NCBI GenBank assembly: GCA_021831785.1
Contig: JAKBMB010000027.1
Location: forward strand, 1 to 64,000
Reading direction: 5' to 3'
DNA length: 64,000 nucleotides
Origin: Deltaproteobacteria bacterium
GTDB taxonomy: Bacteria > Desulfobacterota > Binatia > Binatales > Binataceae
The translations under genes and the position numbers were made by a program. Shown piece by piece: positions 3,621-15,164 of the stretch; position 1 is the first letter of the stretch; every line of letters starts with the position of its first letter. The notes under the pieces were generated by a model. It had not been told where the DNA came from and ran no database searches. It worked only from the letters and a program-made list of their open reading frames with translations.

Positions 3621-4637
3621 ATGGCCCTCCCTGCGCTGCTCAGAACGGCCAGGGCCGTTTTGAGCCTGGGACCGGCCGAGCAGCTTCGGCCCGAGAAAGC
3701 CTTCGCCCGCGGCGGGCTGGCCGTAAGCGCGTGGGATCTATCCAAAAATTTCGGCAAGCTCAAGGCCGTGGACGGGATCGAGCTTCAAATCCGCGAGGGC
3801 GAGTTTTTTGGCCTGTTAGGCCCGAACGGTTCGGGCAAGACGACGACCATCCACATGCTCACAACGCTGGCGCGGCCGACCCATGGCGGCGCTACCGTCG
3901 CCGGCTGCGACGTTCGCGCCCAGCCGGTTTCGGTCAGGCGCCAGATCGGTTTGGTGTTTCAGGAGTCAGCGCTCGACCGCAATCTCACGGTTGAAGAGAA
4001 CCTTCGCTTCGCCGGCGCGTTGTACAAGATGCCAGCCGGGTTGGCGCGGGCGCGAATCGACGAGCTTTTGCAGCTTTTCAATCTTGACGCCAAGCGCCGT
4101 ACGCCGGCAGGGGAACTCTCTGGCGGGATGCGGCGCGCGGTTGACGTGGCGCGCGGCGTTTTGCATCGCCCGCGCGTGCTTTTTCTCGACGAGCCGACGC
4201 TTGGCCTCGATCCGGTCAACCGGCGGGCACTGTGGCAGTTTATCGCGCGGCTGCGGCGCGAAGAACGGGTCACGGTGCTCGTTACTACCCATTACCTCGA
4301 GGAAGCCGCCGCCTGCGACCAGGTGGCTTTCCTCAACGCGGGCAGGATAATTGGGCGCGGCGCTCCGGAGCACCTTATCAAGCAGTTCGGCGCCTACGTG
4401 CTCGAGGTCGAGAGCCCCGACCCAGACGGGATCACGGCCCACTTCAGCGCTCGCCTGGGCGTCGGCCTCAAGACCGACGCCAGCGTTAGCTTTCGCATAG
4501 CGGAAGAGCACTTTTCGATCGCGGGATTGGAAGCGGAACTCGATTCCCGCGTGCGGGCAATGCATCTGCGCCGCCCGGACCTCAACGATGTCTACCTGTG
4601 GCTGATACACGGCGGCTTCGGCGGGCGGGAGCGATAG
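3621..4637 (+). CDS. ABC transporter ATPase, DrrA/ABC-2 export type, PQQ-cluster linked
   Basis: 338 residues. Walker A GPNGSGKTTT at about 71-80, signature LSGGMRRAVDVARG and Walker B VLFLDEPTLGLDP are all present, and a C-terminal DrrA-like extension of about 100 residues follows. It forms a cytoplasmic dimer energising the membrane protein encoded next (4643). An ABC-2 exporter next to PQQ biosynthesis is a known arrangement (PQQ-dependent catabolism-associated ABC transporters), but the cargo is not established; export of PQQ or of a toxic intermediate is conjecture. The start is 11 bases after pqqE; the first ~30 residues precede the conserved fold, so a later start is possible. Confidence 0.88.
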   Translation: MALPALLRTARAVLSLGPAEQLRPEKAFARGGLAVSAWDLSKNFGKLKAVDGIELQIREGEFFGLLGPNGSGKTTTIHMLTTLARPTHGGATVAGCDVRAQPVSVRRQIGLVFQESALDRNLTVEENLRFAGALYKMPAGLARARIDELLQLFNLDAKRRTPAGELSGGMRRAVDVARGVLHRPRVLFLDEPTLGLDPVNRRALWQFIARLRREERVTVLVTTHYLEEAAACDQVAFLNAGRIIGRGAPEHLIKQFGAYVLEVESPDPDGITAHFSARLGVGLKTDASVSFRIAEEHFSIAGLEAELDSRVRAMHLRRPDLNDVYLWLIHGGFGGRER

Positions 4638-8906: not shown

Positions 8907-9650
8907 TCAGCGCTCGCCGGGCGCGTACCTTCCGGCGTACTGACCGCGCGCGAGCGTCACCAGCAGGTACGCATTCTTCCGCAGCAGCGTCGCCGCAAGC
9001 GCGCGCGTCATGTCGGGACGAATCGTCTGCGGCGCCGGATTCATGCATTTGATCGCGGGCCGCGCGCTCGCCTCGCCATCGCTCGCTCCCGCCGCTGCGG
9101 CAGCACTCTCGATCGCTCCCAGGACGACGCCGTCGCCGTTCAGCACCACCGCCGACACCTGCCGCCCCAGCGTGGCTGGCGGCGCCGGATCGGAGGGCTT
9201 CAGATGCACAAGGTCGTCGCGCACCCACTCTCCCACCGCGTGCCGGCGCGAGTACCTGATCCAGGCGGCGCGGATCTGCGGCGCGAGATTGTTGATGAAA
9301 AACGGCAAGGCGCGCATCCGCTCTGCCGCTGTCGCTCGCGGTTCCGAGGGAAGCCCGCGCACGATCCAGTCGGCCTTGCCGCGAAAATAATGAAGCACGC
9401 GCCTATAACCCATCAGTTCGAGCTGCGCCGCAGCCCGCCCGCTCATGTCTCAAAGCGAGTCGCGGCAATAGACGATGATCGGACGTTCCAGATCCAGGAC
9501 CGCCCCGGCCTCGCCGATCACCCGGCCAAGCGGCAGATGGATCGCGCCGCGGATATGACAGACCCGGTACTCGTGCGCGGGCAGGACGTCGATGACTTGC
9601 GCGCCCGCGGCGATCGAATCCAGGACCTCACGATGGTCAATCATGCGCAA
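8907..9650 (-). CDS. Rhodanese-CBS domain protein with in-frame TGA; candidate selenoprotein
   Basis: Read through TGA 9450-9452 this is 247 residues. Residues 1-66 form the first part of a rhodanese domain (IDHREVLD, VIDVLPAHEY, HIRGAIHLPL, then IVYCRDSL with the presumed catalytic Cys). TGA is next. The frame then continues without shift as DMSGRAAAQLELMGYRRV and GKADWIVRGLP, the normal second part of the same domain. The C-terminal half looks like a CBS pair (VVLNGDGVVLG; MNPAPQTIRPD). I recall relatives having Cys at the TGA position (YC-x-D-x2-C-D-x-S). A hairpin suited to a bacterial SECIS follows. Alternatives are a nonsense mutation or restart at ATG 9446. No Sec machinery genes are in the window. 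Confidence 0.7.
9419..9437 (-). promoter_or_regulatory. Candidate bacterial SECIS hairpin
   Basis: Counting from the base after TGA on the minus strand, bases 13-20 (CGGGCTGC) pair with bases 24-31 (GCAGCTCG). This is an 8-bp stem with one G-U pair, closed by the 3-base loop GGC at bases 21-23. The loop begins 20 bases after the TGA and its first base is G. These values fall in the range I know for bacterial SECIS elements (apical loop about 16-37 bases downstream, small loop with an early G, stem of at least 4 bp). GC-rich coding DNA forms such hairpins by chance, so this is supporting, not decisive. Confidence 0.5.
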
Positions 9651-9789
9651 GAGAGGCCGCTCCCGAAGGGCCGCGCTCCGCGACAGGCGCGGAATCGTTC
9701 GCTGCTATTTGCGAGCGAATTCGGTCAGGACATCGAACTGCATCCGTCCGTCCAGCAACGGACCGATCGATTGCTTCGAGACCCGGCTC

Positions 9790-10065
9790 AAGCTGGCGGC
9801 CAGGGGACTTGAGCTGCGCGTTGTCGTGTACCGCAAGCGGGTTCATCACCAGAGCCCCAAGAACTACCAACTCGACCTATTCTCACTCGACGACGGTTAC
9901 TTCGAATACTCTGCGGTGGCGACCAATCTCAGCCTCACCACGCAGGCGTTGTGGTACTTCGCCGCCGGCCTCGCTCGAATCTCGGGCCGCAAGGTCCTGC
10001 GCTGCTCCTCGAACTCCACCACCGAAAGCCTCTATGACCGAATCGCGGACCGCCTTGCCGCCTGA
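9790..10065 (+). pseudogene. IS1380-like transposase, C-terminal remnant
   Basis: The frame ending at 10065 contains VVVYRKRVHHQSPKNYQLDLF, then DDGYFEYSAVATNLSL and ALWYF, the last third of IS1380-family transposases (KNYQLDLF-DPDDG-YEYSA is a remembered family signature). The HEKT-ELK segment expected after WYF is missing; the sequence jumps to ISGRKVLRCSSN and DRIADRLAA, so there is an internal deletion. Upstream in the same frame there is no resemblance. Together with 8552-8745 it brackets the rhodanese-CBS pair. Confidence 0.6.
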
Positions 10066-10094: not shown

Positions 10095-10481
10095 TTAGCC
10101 GCGCGGATAGTCGGCCTTTTGCGGAATGACGTGCCGCACTCCGCCGCGCGGCTCGGGATGGTCGCCGCGGTAGCGCGGAATCAGATGGATGTGGACGTGA
10201 AAGACGCTCTGTCCAGCCGCGCCGCCGACGTTCACGCCGATATTGTAGCCGTCGGGCTTGAGCTCTTGGGCGAGGCTCTTGCGCCGAGCCACGAGAAGCT
10301 CCGCGCAGGCGGCGATTTCATCAGGTGACAGCTCGAAGAAATCGGCGCAATGCCGCAATGGGATGATCAGCGTATGCCCCGGGCTTACCGGGTATGTGTC
10401 GGGCGTCGCGTACGCCAGTTCGTTGCGCCCGCAAACCGCGCGCGGCGCGCAGAACAAGCACGGATTGTTCGGGTCCCTCAT
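10095..10481 (-). CDS. HIT-family nucleotide hydrolase coupled to qmoC
   Basis: 128 residues with the histidine triad HVHIHLIPRY near the C-terminus and an N-terminal CLFC / CGRN cysteine pair. HIT proteins of this branch hydrolyse adenylated substrates (AMP esters, Ap4A, AMP-NH2), and some HIT enzymes are known to split adenosine 5'-phosphosulfate. Its ATG overlaps the qmoC stop (10478-10481), so it is the last cistron of sat-aprBA-qmoABC. The operon position makes APS or another adenylyl compound a plausible substrate; that is inference. Length is typical for a single-domain HIT protein. Confidence 0.9.
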   Translation of the reverse strand: MRDPNNPCLFCAPRAVCGRNELAYATPDTYPVSPGHTLIIPLRHCADFFELSPDEIAACAELLVARRKSLAQELKPDGYNIGVNVGGAAGQSVFHVHIHLIPRYRGDHPEPRGGVRHVIPQKADYPRG

Positions 10482-11650
10482 TTCGCCGCACTTGGGGCGC
10501 CGGCGACCAAGCTTCGCGCGTCAAGCAGCGATTGCGTGTAAAGCATCGCCGCCGTCCGGTAGACCACATGCCCGAACTTGGAATACGGGAAGTAGACCAG
10601 GAGGAAAAATACCAACGTCAGATGAACGAAGTACGTCGGATACGCCAGCGCGGCAAGCCCGGCTAGCCGCAGGGATTCGCACGCGAACCCGCTGGCCACG
10701 GCGAGCAGCAGAACAATCAGAAACAGCCAGTCGGTGTAAGTGCTTTTCTGCGCTCGCGCCTGCTCCCCGATCCGATGCCAAAGGAAAACGGCGAGCCCGG
10801 CCACCAGCGCGGTCCCGCTTACGTTGCCGAGAATTTTCACCGGATGCCACAGCGGCCAGGGCGTCAGATAGCCGAAGAAGTGAATCCCGATTCCCACGGA
10901 GGTGGTGGTCGCCACCAGGCCTAAAAAGCCGTAAAAAACCGCCAGGTGGGTTTTATAGAGATGCGTTTGATGAGTGGGGCGAGTTCCCACCGAATCTTCG
11001 TTGCAGCGTTTGAATTTTCCGTGTCTCAGAATGTCCGCTATCACGTGCGCGAGCGCAGCGCCAAGATTAGCGTCGCGGCCGCCGTCGGCCGCCCCGCGCC
11101 GCAGCGCCAACCAGTAGCGCACGCCCCCGGCGAGCGCGCCCACGATAGCGAGACCGACGGCGATATCGAACAGCGCCTCGACGTAAAAATCCGGGAAGAG
11201 CTTGGCGAAAACGATTCTGCCTTCCGGCAGCGCGGTGAGGCGGTCGAGCCCGGCGAGTATGGCGAGCAGAATCGCCACCGGCAACGCGAACAAGAGCGGC
11301 AGATATTTCGGTTCGCTTAGCGCCGCCCCGAGGAAGCCGGGCGCCGCGTAATGGCCGATGCTGTAGTCGCGCAGCGCCGCCATCACGCTGGCCGGCTTGG
11401 CGTCGCGCGGGCAATAAGCGCTGCACTCGCCGCACTGATGGCACATCCAGATCGATGGGTTGGCGAGCGCGCGCTCCTTTAACCCCCACTGCACCCATAT
11501 CATCTCTTTACGCGGAAAGGGATTGTCCGCGGTCGATATGGGGCACACGGTCGAGCATGTGCCGCACTGGTAGCAGAAGGAGAGGTCGCGCGCGTCAAGG
11601 TCCATTATCCGGCGCTTGAAATCGAGGTCCGGTTCAAGCTTCTCGATCAT
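10478..11650 (-). CDS. qmoC: QmoC, quinone-interacting membrane-bound oxidoreductase subunit C
   Basis: 390 residues. The N-terminal HdrC-like domain has two 4Fe-4S motifs, CYQCGTCSTVCP at about 26-37 and CHQCGECSAYCP at about 70-81. The C-terminal part is a cytochrome b-like (HdrE/NarI-type) membrane domain with about six helices and His residues in helices (HLYKTHLAVFYGFLG; WHPVKILG; YFVHLTLVF). This fusion is characteristic of QmoC, which links the HdrA-like subunits QmoA/B to the menaquinone pool and thus to APS reductase. It starts directly after qmoB stops. Confidence 0.93.
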   Translation of the reverse strand: MIEKLEPDLDFKRRIMDLDARDLSFCYQCGTCSTVCPISTADNPFPRKEMIWVQWGLKERALANPSIWMCHQCGECSAYCPRDAKPASVMAALRDYSIGHYAAPGFLGAALSEPKYLPLLFALPVAILLAILAGLDRLTALPEGRIVFAKLFPDFYVEALFDIAVGLAIVGALAGGVRYWLALRRGAADGGRDANLGAALAHVIADILRHGKFKRCNEDSVGTRPTHQTHLYKTHLAVFYGFLGLVATTTSVGIGIHFFGYLTPWPLWHPVKILGNVSGTALVAGLAVFLWHRIGEQARAQKSTYTDWLFLIVLLLAVASGFACESLRLAGLAALAYPTYFVHLTLVFFLLVYFPYSKFGHVVYRTAAMLYTQSLLDARSLVAGAPSAAK

Positions 11651-13786
11651 CTAGAACCCTTTCATCGGGTTGGGGCCGACTTGTCTTATTGTCTCGGCGA
11701 GCTCTGCGAGCACGGAAGGAAGCTTATCGTAGTCCGAAATTGCGACTTCGACCACCTGCACGCGCTCCGGCTCGAGCATCAGCCGTCCGAGAGTCTCCCG
11801 CATGTTTGCCATCCGCTTTTCGAGCAGCTCGCTGCCCTGGATAAAGTGGCACTGGTAGTCTTCGCCGGACTTGCAGCCCAAAAGCGCTACCCCGTCGAAG
11901 CCGCGCGAAACCGCGTCGGTAATCAGCACGCTGTTGACCGAGCCGATGCAGCGCACGGGTATTACGCGTATCGACGCGGGATATTCCAAGCGGTTGATGC
12001 CCGCCATGTCGAGCGCCGGATAAGCGTCGTTTTCGCAGGCCAAAGCCAGGATCCTCGGCTTGTCGGCATCGCCCTCCGGTATCTCAACCGACGTGATCAT
12101 GGTCGAGAGGATATCCACCGAGTAGTCGGCAAACGAGATTATCTGCACCGGGCAGGCTCCCATACAGATGCCGCAACGGCGGCAGCGATTGGGATTGAGC
12201 ACCGGGTTGCGCTTTTCGTTGAGCTCGAGCGCGCCGAACGGGCACTCCTGCGTGCAGCGTCCGCACGAGGTACACTTCTGCATGAAAAACGCGGGGTACG
12301 ACATGTCGCCCACACGCGGATGGACCGCCTGGCCGGCGGAGCTCTTTTCGATCGATTGCATCGCCTTGAGCGCTGCGGCGCGCCCGTCGCGAGCGGCGGC
12401 CGCCATGTCCATCGCCTGGCGCGCGGCGCCAGCCGAATATATTCCGGTGCGGCGGGTTTCGTACGGGAAACAAACGAAATTGGAGTCGGCAAAGCCGAAT
12501 TTTGTCACCGGCAGCCCTTCGCCCTGCAAGTAGCGCAGGCCTAGCGCGCTTTCACCATCGGCGGTGCTGGGCGTCATCCCCGCGGCGAGAACGATGAGGT
12601 CGATCTCCAGCGTCGCGCCCGGACCCAGCGCAGTATCGCTGACCTCGACGATGAGATTGTGCTCGCGGTCCTCGGCGACCCGCTCCACCTGGCCCTGCGA
12701 GAGCAGAACGCCCGGATCGCCCTGGACGCTGCGGTAGAAGTATTCGTACTGCCCCGGCGTCTGCATATCGCCGTAAAACACATACGCGAGCGCATCAGGC
12801 CTGAGCTCGCGCACGTAAAGGGCTTGCTTGAGCGCGACCAGGCTCGAGACGTTGCCGCCGTATGGCAGATGCGCGTCGTCGTCGCGCCCGTCGCACAAGA
12901 GGAAGAGCACGCGGCGGGCCGGCCGCCGGTCTGAAGGCCGGATAAGTTCGCCCCTTTTGGCCATGCCTTCGAACTCAAGACTGGTCGTGACGTTCGGGTA
13001 GACGCCGAGCCCATAGCGTTCGCACTTTGCCGTCGCTGTCGGCTGCCAGCCGGTGGCGGCCACGATCGCGCCGACGGTATCTTCAATCGTGCCCTCGGCA
13101 GTGCGCACTACGACCTTGAATTGCCCCGGCTCTCCTTCGGCGGATTCGACCTTCGAGGAAAGGTGAATCGTAACGTTCGGCAAAGCCCCGAGCTGCCGCG
13201 CCTGGTCCGCGACGGTAATCTCTTGCGGGGCTTGATAGGGAAAGCGCTTAGGAAACTGGCGGTAAAAATGGCTCGCCCAGCCGCCCAGTTCGCTTTGTCG
13301 CTCCACGATTACCACGCGAAAGCCGCATCGCGCCGCGCTCAGCGCGGCGCTTACCCCGGCGACTCCGCCGCCGACGACGAGCACGGCGCGCGTGTTCGCT
13401 TGAACGTACGGCTCGGGTCGGGCGACCCTGCGCGCGCGCTCAATCCCCATCCGAAGATAATCCGCCGCCAGGTCTTGCGTCTCGGGATGGTTCGGCGGAT
13501 GGCTCCACGCCACTTGCTCGCGCAAATTCACGCGCTCGACCGTTGCGCCGGGAATTCTGAAAACGTCGGTGTTGACCCGTGGGGAGCAGGCGGCGATCAC
13601 CACCGCTTCGACCGCGCCCTGCGCGACGTCGTCCCGGATAAGCCGCGCGTCCTCCAGGCAGAAGGCCGGCGATTTGCGCGCCAGACACCCTGCTTGGCTC
13701 GCAGCCGCCGCCAATTGCTCGGTATCGACCGCGTCTGCGATTACGCAGCCGGAGCAGATGTAAGCGCCCAGCTTTTTACTCGCCAT
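11651..13786 (-). CDS. qmoB: QmoB, HdrA/MvhD-like flavoprotein subunit
   Basis: 711 residues from ATG 13786 (MASKKLGAYICSGCVIADAV). Order: N-terminal HdrA-like segment with CSGC; FAD site VLVVGGGVAGVSAALSA around 135-150; two ferredoxin motifs (CTSCGRCTQECP and CRRCGICMGACP); and a C-terminal MvhD/FrhD-like domain with VIPVRCIGSVNSVLI, LLGCKSGEDYQCHF and related cysteines. This is QmoB, the electron-bifurcation-type partner of QmoA in the membrane complex serving APS reductase. The frame is open another 71 codons upstream, but that overlaps qmoA and looks random. Confidence 0.93.
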   Translation of the reverse strand: MASKKLGAYICSGCVIADAVDTEQLAAAASQAGCLARKSPAFCLEDARLIRDDVAQGAVEAVVIAACSPRVNTDVFRIPGATVERVNLREQVAWSHPPNHPETQDLAADYLRMGIERARRVARPEPYVQANTRAVLVVGGGVAGVSAALSAARCGFRVVIVERQSELGGWASHFYRQFPKRFPYQAPQEITVADQARQLGALPNVTIHLSSKVESAEGEPGQFKVVVRTAEGTIEDTVGAIVAATGWQPTATAKCERYGLGVYPNVTTSLEFEGMAKRGELIRPSDRRPARRVLFLLCDGRDDDAHLPYGGNVSSLVALKQALYVRELRPDALAYVFYGDMQTPGQYEYFYRSVQGDPGVLLSQGQVERVAEDREHNLIVEVSDTALGPGATLEIDLIVLAAGMTPSTADGESALGLRYLQGEGLPVTKFGFADSNFVCFPYETRRTGIYSAGAARQAMDMAAAARDGRAAALKAMQSIEKSSAGQAVHPRVGDMSYPAFFMQKCTSCGRCTQECPFGALELNEKRNPVLNPNRCRRCGICMGACPVQIISFADYSVDILSTMITSVEIPEGDADKPRILALACENDAYPALDMAGINRLEYPASIRVIPVRCIGSVNSVLITDAVSRGFDGVALLGCKSGEDYQCHFIQGSELLEKRMANMRETLGRLMLEPERVQVVEVAISDYDKLPSVLAELAETIRQVGPNPMKGF

Positions 13787-13787
13787 C

Positions 13788-15164
13788 TCAGCTCCCGGCC
13801 GCGCGGGCGAGCGCCTCGATCGCCATCGCCGCAGCCGCGGTAGCGTCCTGGACCGACGTTGCCACGTCAAACGGACCCCTGGCACATCCCGCGGCAAAAA
13901 TTCCGTCCTGCGGCTCGGCGCCGGCAAACCAGTCCTGATCCACCCGAAACGGGCCCGCCTGCAGCGCAGAAGGCGCGGTCTCGCGGCGAAGCGATTCACT
14001 GCCGGGCCGACGTGCTCCGTTGTTTCGCGATTCGGACAGACTGGATTCCATGCCGGTTGCGAGCACCAGCAAATCGACCTTCAAGTTTGTCTTGCGCGCC
14101 GAGAGGATATCTTCGGCTTCGACCACAAGCCGCCCGCTTTGCGGATCCAGAGCGACCTTTGCGATCTTCCCCTTCTGCACCGTGACAAAAGGGTCGCTGA
14201 GCACTTTTTTGGCGAAAAATTCGTAGGTCCCCGGCGTGCGCAGATCGATATAAAAAATATGGGCGTGTGCGTTCGGATTGCGCTCTCGCAGATAAACCGC
14301 CTGCTTGAGCGAGGCTAGGCAGCAAATCGTCGAGCAGTAGCCAAGATGGTTCTGGTCGCGTGAACCCGCGCACTGGACGAAGGCGGCGCTCTCGACCGGC
14401 GCGCCGTCGGAAGGCCGCACGATGCGGCCGTGGGTCGGCCCGTTGGGCGCCGCCATCCGCTCCATCATCACGTTGGTGATCACGTCGGCGTATTTGCCGA
14501 AGCCCAAATTATCGATTCGGCTGGCGTCGTATGGTTTCCAGCCGGTGGCGATGATGATCGCGCCCGCTCTGAGCACGATCGCCCGCGGCTCCATTTTAAG
14601 ATCGATCGCGCCGTACTCGCACACCTCCACGCAGCGCGCGCATTCGCTGAGAGAGCACGCGTCGTCGTCGATCGCGTACTTCATCGGAAACGCCATGTCA
14701 TGCGGCCGGTAGATCGCCTTGGTCTTCCCGAGGCCGAAGTTGAACGCGTCGGGGCGCTCAGCCGGGCACACCGCCACACACGCGTTGCAGGCGGTGCAGC
14801 GGTCATTCACGTAGCGCGGGCGGATCAGGACCCGCACCTCGAAATTTCCGGGGGCGCCGCCGACCGTCTCAACCTGCGCCATAGTGAAGAACCTGATTTT
14901 CGGATTATCTTTGATCCGGCGAAAGTTGATCTCCAAACCGCAGTAAGGCGGGCAAAGCTTCGGGAAGTACTTGTAGAGCTGCGCGACGCGGCCGCCGAGG
15001 TAGGGCTCCTTCTCGATTATGATCGATTCGTAGCCGGCCTCCGCCGCCTCGACCGCCGCGGTGATGCCGGCGATTCCGCCGCCGACGATCAAAATCGCGC
15101 GAGAGACTTCCGCGGCGCCGGCGCTACGGTCCGCAGAAACCGGCGATTGCGCTTGCGCGGCCAT
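13788..15164 (-). CDS. qmoA: QmoA, HdrA-like flavoprotein subunit
   Basis: 458 residues. FAD-binding motif ILIVGGGIAGITAAVEAAEAG at about 24-43. The Cys segment CPPYCGLEINFRRI, a 4Fe-4S motif CTACNACVAVCP and CARCVEVCEYGAI follow, then VQCAGSRDQNHLGYCSTICC, the typical HdrA core motif. The family is the HdrA-like flavoprotein that accepts or donates electrons to AprAB at the cytoplasmic face. qmoB starts one base after its stop. A tail of about 60 residues at the C-terminus (RNNGARRPGSE) is less conserved in appearance. Confidence 0.93.
   Translation of the reverse strand: MAAQAQSPVSADRSAGAAEVSRAILIVGGGIAGITAAVEAAEAGYESIIIEKEPYLGGRVAQLYKYFPKLCPPYCGLEINFRRIKDNPKIRFFTMAQVETVGGAPGNFEVRVLIRPRYVNDRCTACNACVAVCPAERPDAFNFGLGKTKAIYRPHDMAFPMKYAIDDDACSLSECARCVEVCEYGAIDLKMEPRAIVLRAGAIIIATGWKPYDASRIDNLGFGKYADVITNVMMERMAAPNGPTHGRIVRPSDGAPVESAAFVQCAGSRDQNHLGYCSTICCLASLKQAVYLRERNPNAHAHIFYIDLRTPGTYEFFAKKVLSDPFVTVQKGKIAKVALDPQSGRLVVEAEDILSARKTNLKVDLLVLATGMESSLSESRNNGARRPGSESLRRETAPSALQAGPFRVDQDWFAGAEPQDGIFAAGCARGPFDVATSVQDATAAAAMAIEALARAAGS

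Follow-up and report, generated by a model that had tools for sequence, protein, structure and literature searches.

An in-frame TGA in a rhodanese-CBS gene of Binataceae, best explained as selenocysteine

Is a rhodanese gene with a stop codon in its active-site loop a broken gene, two genes, or a selenoprotein gene? We asked this of a locus in a stretch of 64,000 nucleotides from a Binataceae genome (3.68 Mb, 34 contigs, 96% complete); we call the whole stretch the window. An initial annotation, made from the letters of the window, had read the gene as a selenoprotein candidate. That interpretation is supported by the exchange of TGA for TGC among relatives, by the decoding machinery and by a constrained hairpin, and we believe the best explanation of the locus is that it very probably encodes a selenoprotein.

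Reading frame and domains

The minus-strand frame from 9650 to 8907 has 247 codons, a sole internal TGA at 9452-9450 (residue 67) and TGA as its terminal codon (Table 1). Our reading of the frame bore out what had been claimed for it: a single TGA interrupts the rhodanese-CBS frame, the TGA lies five residues past the rhodanese Cys (C-x4-U, with Cys at residue 62 and the TGA at codon 67), and there is no second disablement, as the protein continues without further lesion. The sequence around codon 67 is YCRDSL-TGA-DMSGRAA, and GC3 is high on either side of the TGA (0.79 and 0.80). A shared start position is possible in most full-length homologues.

Table 1. Features of the locus, in window coordinates.
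Feature	Position	Strand	Remarks
Rhodanese-CBS gene, probable selenoprotein	8907..9650	-	247 codons with TGA read as Sec
Start and stop codons	9648-9650 (TTG); 8907-8909 (TGA)	-	alternative start ATG 9642-9644
In-frame TGA, residue 67, probably read as selenocysteine	9450..9452	-	TGA in 10/13 genomes, TGC in 3/13
Active-site Cys62 codon (TGC) of the rhodanese	9465..9467	-	invariant, 15/15 aligned rows
SECIS-like hairpin	9419..9437	-	8 bp, loop GGC at 9427-9429
Rhodanese domain	9366..9629	-	Pfam span residues 8-95; fold match residues 1-106
Degenerate CBS pair	8910..9245	-	residues 136-247, predicted fold

The rhodanese profile (PF00581) matches the window protein at 47.1 bits, against a Pfam cut-off of 22.2, and the match spans the TGA. 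The CBS profile (PF00571) reaches 12.6 bits, below its cut-off of 24. Relatives of the same architecture vary in this respect, with CBS scores of 47.0 and 52.7 bits in two distant ones (L043 and L044), 15.2 bits in a close one (L034) and no match in another (L038). We also predicted the fold with AlphaFold from an alignment of the window protein with 14 relatives (15 rows; mean pLDDT 92.2, pTM 0.89). The first part of the model matches rhodaneses (3tp9, Z 17.2; BH2092, 3o3w, Z 16.0), and the last part matches CBS pairs (CBSX2 with AMP, 4gqy, Z 14.0; AcuB, 9s4z, Z 13.7). Because both halves have these fold matches, the name rhodanese-CBS given in the initial annotation is right, by profile for the rhodanese and by predicted fold for the CBS pair.

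Codon 67 among relatives

We searched 148 genomes of the class. At E <= 1e-12 there was a match in 21, and the full family was found in 13. Leaving out the window itself, the full-family relatives are 55-62% identical to the window protein, and a damaged second copy in G440 is 51-59% identical. Codon 67 is TGA in ten of the 13 genomes (G000, which is the window genome, G432, G414, G431, G439, G411, G433, G429, G412 and G440) and TGC in the other three (G221, G149 and G264). The initial annotation had stated that relatives carry Cys here, and this was correct: besides the TGC genomes, the solved relative BH2092 has Cys. The proposed check of homologues for Cys or TGA gave only these two, with no third codon in the 14 full-family places across the 13 genomes. 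Although the codon script was limited to TGA and TGC, its output had a row for each of the 13 genomes, and another residue therefore cannot have gone unnoticed. The eight closest named loci (six TGA, two TGC) duplicate eight of the 13 genomes and were counted once; all eight are metagenome-assembled, with 'Candidatus Binatus soli' and 'Candidatus Binataceae bacterium' among them.

A profile search of the same 148 genomes at E <= 1e-15 matched 42. Among these are three genomes from another family of the class (G513, G515 and G519), each with a relative that has the same TGA. The CBS pair is present in the G513 and G515 relatives, and the G519 relative ends at a contig end before the CBS region. 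A sample of 395 genomes of the phylum gave four matches (E <= 1e-15; 1e-20), all in the window's own family.

In a tree of 15 proteins the three Cys forms sit together beside one branch, with support of 53/73 and in half of 200 bootstrap trees. Since this branch support is weak, a single Sec-to-Cys change and several such changes can't be told apart.

We exclude chance mainly because the same TGA stands at the same codon in ten of 13 genomes; the nine of these besides the window genome have proteins with 55-62% identity to that of the window. With the TGA common to ten genome assemblies, a sequencing error is very unlikely. The same facts weigh on the reading that the gene is dead, either by a nonsense mutation or through an assembly error. 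A single stop is indeed how a fresh nonsense mutation looks, and damaged copies do occur, as the visibly frameshifted copy in G440 shows. However, a dead gene does not fit a TGA kept in so many relatives with TGC as the sole alternative, an absence of second lesions, and high GC3 on both sides, and we give this reading very little credence.

Another way to explain the stop is that UGA terminates translation and that the ATG at 9444-9446 restarts it, giving two cooperating polypeptides. This ATG is one codon past the TGA and opens a 179-codon ORF in the window. Among the ten TGA rows, however, the restart codon is ATG in only two; the others have CTT, TTA, TTG, CTG or CTC (TTG and CTG are potential start codons). 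Judging by the predicted fold, such a break would also interrupt the active-site loop within a single compact domain. We consider a split gene highly improbable.

The second G440 copy (L051 and L053; G440:C329) keeps the TGA and has its frameshift soon after it. It is either a decaying duplicate or an assembly fault.

Selenocysteine decoding genes

We looked for selA, selB, selC and selD, as the initial annotation had advised, and found all four in the window genome. The tRNA-Sec has the anticodon TCA and scores 71.4 bits (gathering score 47); SelA scores 582.5 bits, SelB 377.8 bits and SelD 382.7 bits. The tRNA-Sec model (RF01852) also gave 15 weaker matches in this genome, and the seven that we examined are ordinary Ser, Leu, Cys and Gly tRNAs. 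The SelD frame has a single in-frame TGA of its own, in the loop ARCKAAG-TGA (L026, G000:C4:205303-206229). Among the criteria for a bacterial selenoprotein are a UGA where homologues have Cys, and SelA, SelB, SelD and tRNA-Sec in the genome; the locus and its genome show both.

Across the ten TGA genomes, SelA is present in 10/10, SelB in 9/10 (absent from G412, 85% complete) and tRNA-Sec in 9/10 (absent from G439, 88% complete). Two of the Cys genomes, G221 and G264 (97% and 96% complete), are without SelA, SelB and tRNA-Sec. The third, G149 (L032/L013), has all three, and we conclude from this Cys form beside retained machinery that a change from Sec to Cys does not need machinery loss. SelA, SelB and tRNA-Sec are all present in G513 and G515; in G519, with its partial distant relative, we found tRNA-Sec and no match to SelA or SelB. 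With SelB in 119 of the 148 class genomes, its presence is a weak signal, and its absence from two Cys genomes is a stronger one.

A genome-wide reassignment of UGA, for example to Trp, has nothing in its favor except the open frame, and we regard it as practically excluded because the gene's own terminal stop is TGA, the residue is Cys in 3/3 non-TGA genomes, and tRNA-Sec and its factors are present.

Two observations concern the tRNA-Sec genes themselves. In the window genome the tRNA-Sec gene has, about 120 bases away, a 381-aa ORF (L001 1501-2859) that resembles a tyrosine integrase, an arrangement that would be expected if selC had served as the target of an element. G433 has two tRNA-Sec matches 4 kb apart on one contig.

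A hairpin after the TGA

The hairpin that had been claimed for this place, 8 bp with a G-first 3-base loop 12 bases after the TGA, is there as described, with arms CGGGCUGC/GCAGCUCG and loop GGC. A SECIS is a stem-loop just 3' of the UGA whose small apical loop contains a G, which is the form seen here. We tried folding energy alone as evidence for a SECIS and rejected it: the z score is -2.50 for 48 nt, and the longer stretches are not unusual (-0.37 for 61 nt and +0.17 for 106 nt).

Codon identity points to constraint at the RNA level. At codons +4 to +11 past the TGA, 288/311 same-residue codon pairs among the ten TGA rows are identical (93%), against 2467/5054 (49%) in the remaining gene. 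We picked this span after the hairpin was known and left the second G440 copy out of these counts. Ranked by codon conservation, 76 windows of six codons had enough data, and the top six of them begin at +3 to +8.

For base pairing we used 14 TGA rows, including the frameshifted second G440 copy, and over these rows 95.5% of the hairpin cells are paired. One pair has changed on both sides, from U-A to C-G, in three rows, and another alternates between G-U and A-U. The three rows with the double change are one related group, so they may reflect a single event. In 500 shuffles, none reached the covariation score and none the number of double-changed cells; the percentage paired was reached by 13, the number of double-changed pairs by 263 and the number of pair types by all 500. 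The breaks among TGA rows are at pair 18-32 in G440a and at the outermost pair, 16-34, in 4/14 rows. In each Cys row one of the three pairs nearest the loop is disrupted (21-29 in G149, 23-27 in G221 and G264), and the three Cys rows together still have 87.5% of the hairpin cells paired. On the evidence of these alignments, the hairpin is under strong constraint at the RNA level.

The window genome's SelD gene also has an 8-bp hairpin after its TGA, with the same GGC loop.

From the aligned sequences and the gene content of the genome, we conclude that the UGA would almost certainly be decoded as Sec by the organism's own SelA, SelB, SelD and tRNA-Sec, directed by the hairpin.

Gene neighborhood

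Upstream of the gene, at 10095-15164 on the minus strand, the window has QmoABC/HdrA-like flavin and iron-sulfur genes and then a HIT-domain gene; we take the set at 10478-15164 to be QmoABC-like. We considered a functional link to this cluster and dropped it, as no ORF matching the QmoABC-like genes was found in the flanks of eight relative loci (L009-L016, up to about 6 kb each). Aside from ORFs that overlap the rhodanese, the sole window ORF matched in these flanks is 3621-4637, in L011 and L016. Five of the loci (L010 and L012-L015) share a different set of neighbors, judged by eye, which are presumably holo-ACP synthase-like, acyl-CoA dehydrogenase-like and ceramidase-like ORFs. Because the flanks differ, the neighborhood gives no function for the rhodanese-CBS gene.

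A plus-strand ORF (9592-10065) overlaps the 5' end of the rhodanese-CBS gene as well as the interval between this gene and the HIT gene. We take it to resemble a transposase remnant; it had no Pfam match, and a tblastn search with part of it gave no plasmid match.

What the protein may do

In the selenoprotein that we propose, a single rhodanese domain is joined to a CBS pair, and Cys62 and Sec67 (Cys62-x4-Sec67) would stand at the two ends of the active-site loop. Cys62 would accept a sulfane sulfur and become a persulfide. The selenolate of Sec67 could then attack the persulfide, releasing sulfide (or a reduced acceptor) and leaving a Cys-Sec bond, which a thioredoxin-type reductant would reset. 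The CBS pair might adjust this persulfide chemistry with the adenine-nucleotide level. We offer this function, persulfide reduction by Cys62/Sec67 with a thioredoxin-type reset and adjustment by adenylates, as a tentative proposal that could well be wrong. With Cys in place of Sec the protein would work in the same way at a lower rate, and this would account for the survival of a Cys protein in lineages that lost selenium decoding.

An alternative is that Sec67 holds cargo and is not a redox residue, either passing perselenide to SelD or donating sulfur to a tRNA or cofactor. Rhodanese domains can act in selenium transfer, as in the rhodanese-domain 2-selenouridine synthase cited in PMC5029168. 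The distribution of the family speaks against such a carrier: with SelB in 119 class genomes and the family in only 13 of the 148, the rhodanese-CBS protein is evidently unneeded for decoding, and the persistence of Cys forms in two genomes without SelA, SelB and tRNA-Sec argues against a role tied to selenium supply. We think a carrier role is unlikely.

The loop might also serve a phosphatase or an arsenate reductase. Cdc25/Acr2-type enzymes share the rhodanese fold, with the motif HC-x5-R. In our proteins, residue 68, six residues after Cys62, is an invariant Asp and not Arg in 15/15 rows, and we judge this use of the loop very unlikely.

If codon 67 is read as Sec, this is a form of rhodanese selenoprotein that keeps its usual cysteine and has a second residue of the active-site loop become Sec. 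The family would also offer one enzyme in natural Sec and Cys versions, carried by close relatives of which some have the selenium machinery and some lack it. Gene-calling programs for which TGA is only a stop would probably split or drop such genes here.

A similar in-frame TGA in rhodanese-ion-channel genes

Twelve class genomes have a rhodanese with YC[AG]x[FA]T-TGA, in which the TGA again comes five residues after the Cys and a long open frame follows (L047, L048/L088, L049/L086, L052, L084, L087, L090, L092, L098, L099, L100 and L102). Ion_trans_2 (Pfam) was present in 4/4 of these channel-type loci that were scanned. By script, 10 of the 12 contain the GYGD filter motif, which is also seen in L047; L090 was outside this check. 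The hairpins are more varied than in the rhodanese-CBS genes: that of L047 is clean (7 bp, loop GUG), and those of L048, L049 and L052 are bulged or weaker. Among the other TGA-bearing rhodanese matches that we examined, L089, L096 and L104 are Cys forms in which the TGA is an ordinary stop, and the motif patterns did not sort L091, L093, L101, L103 and L105.

The rhodanese-ion-channel loci are probably a second C-x4-U selenoprotein family. To our knowledge, no selenocysteine-gated ion channel has been described so far. The available part of the PMC13188914 table has no ion channel among the selenoproteins that it lists. The occurrence of this rhodanese motif on ion channels hints at regulation based on selenium. 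More speculatively, and we regard this as doubtful, the Cys-x4-Sec rhodanese may be a general redox or sulfane-sulfur sensing module in the class, mounted on a CBS pair and on K+-channel-like proteins. If that were true, selenium chemistry would have two uses, the tuning of enzymes that respond to adenylates and the gating of ion channels.

Comparison with known systems

Our searches of open-access PMC gave no paper combining Binatota with selenoprotein, none combining rhodanese, CBS domain and selenocysteine, and none combining CXXXXU with selenoprotein; an earlier mention of any of these may exist elsewhere. Binatota occurs together with selenocysteine in one paper (PMC9999580), and rhodanese together with selenoprotein in 49; PMC12013277 does not mention rhodanese. 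Rhodanese-like selenoproteins as such are an established kind (PMC13188914, PMC9312934, PMC1088965), which narrows the novelty of our case. The initial annotation had pointed to Sec-containing rhodaneses in metagenome surveys, and the Sargasso Sea survey does include a rhodanese-related selenoprotein (PMC1088965).

Rhodaneses with a thiol pair also exist without selenium, as two cases indicate. BH2092 of Bacillus halodurans (3nhv/3o3w) is the closest solved C-x4-C rhodanese that we found. Its loop reads YCWGPAC, with Cys aligned with both Cys62 and Sec67. It differs from the window protein in having Cys for Sec, and its chains of at most 144 residues leave no CBS pair. The window's own genome has a two-Cys rhodanese as well (L018, YCRGPYC). 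CBSX2 and AcuB resemble the CBS part only; the CBS sequence of the window protein is degenerate, and its nucleotide binding is putative.

PMC13188914 lists 119 selenoprotein families or subfamilies. Five are rhodanese-like forms, with the Sec motifs UxxS (form 1), UxxG (form 2), CxU (form 3, NF041203), UxxG (form 4) and UxxxxU (form 5, TsoB). Forms 1-4 are, like the window protein, rhodaneses with a predicted Sec, but the window protein retains its Cys, has the Sec five residues on and carries a C-terminal CBS pair. Against the model for the CxU form it scores 15 bits, under the cut-off of 115, and its spacing is five, not two. TsoB (NF045694) has two Sec with the same spacing of five as Cys62 and Sec67. 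It differs in having Sec at both positions, where the window protein has Cys at the first, and in being named a DsbD-like fusion. The TsoB model matches the window protein at 25.5 bits, far under its cut-off of 805 and over model positions 62-164 of 572, and all 15 aligned rows match it weakly. From the spacing and this weak profile match we infer that the second Sec of TsoB may align with Sec67. PMC13188914 counts a domain that recurs with its Sec at another position as a subfamily of its own. On this criterion, a C-x4-U rhodanese joined to a CBS pair would be a new subfamily of rhodanese-like selenoproteins, with TsoB the nearest to it in spacing.
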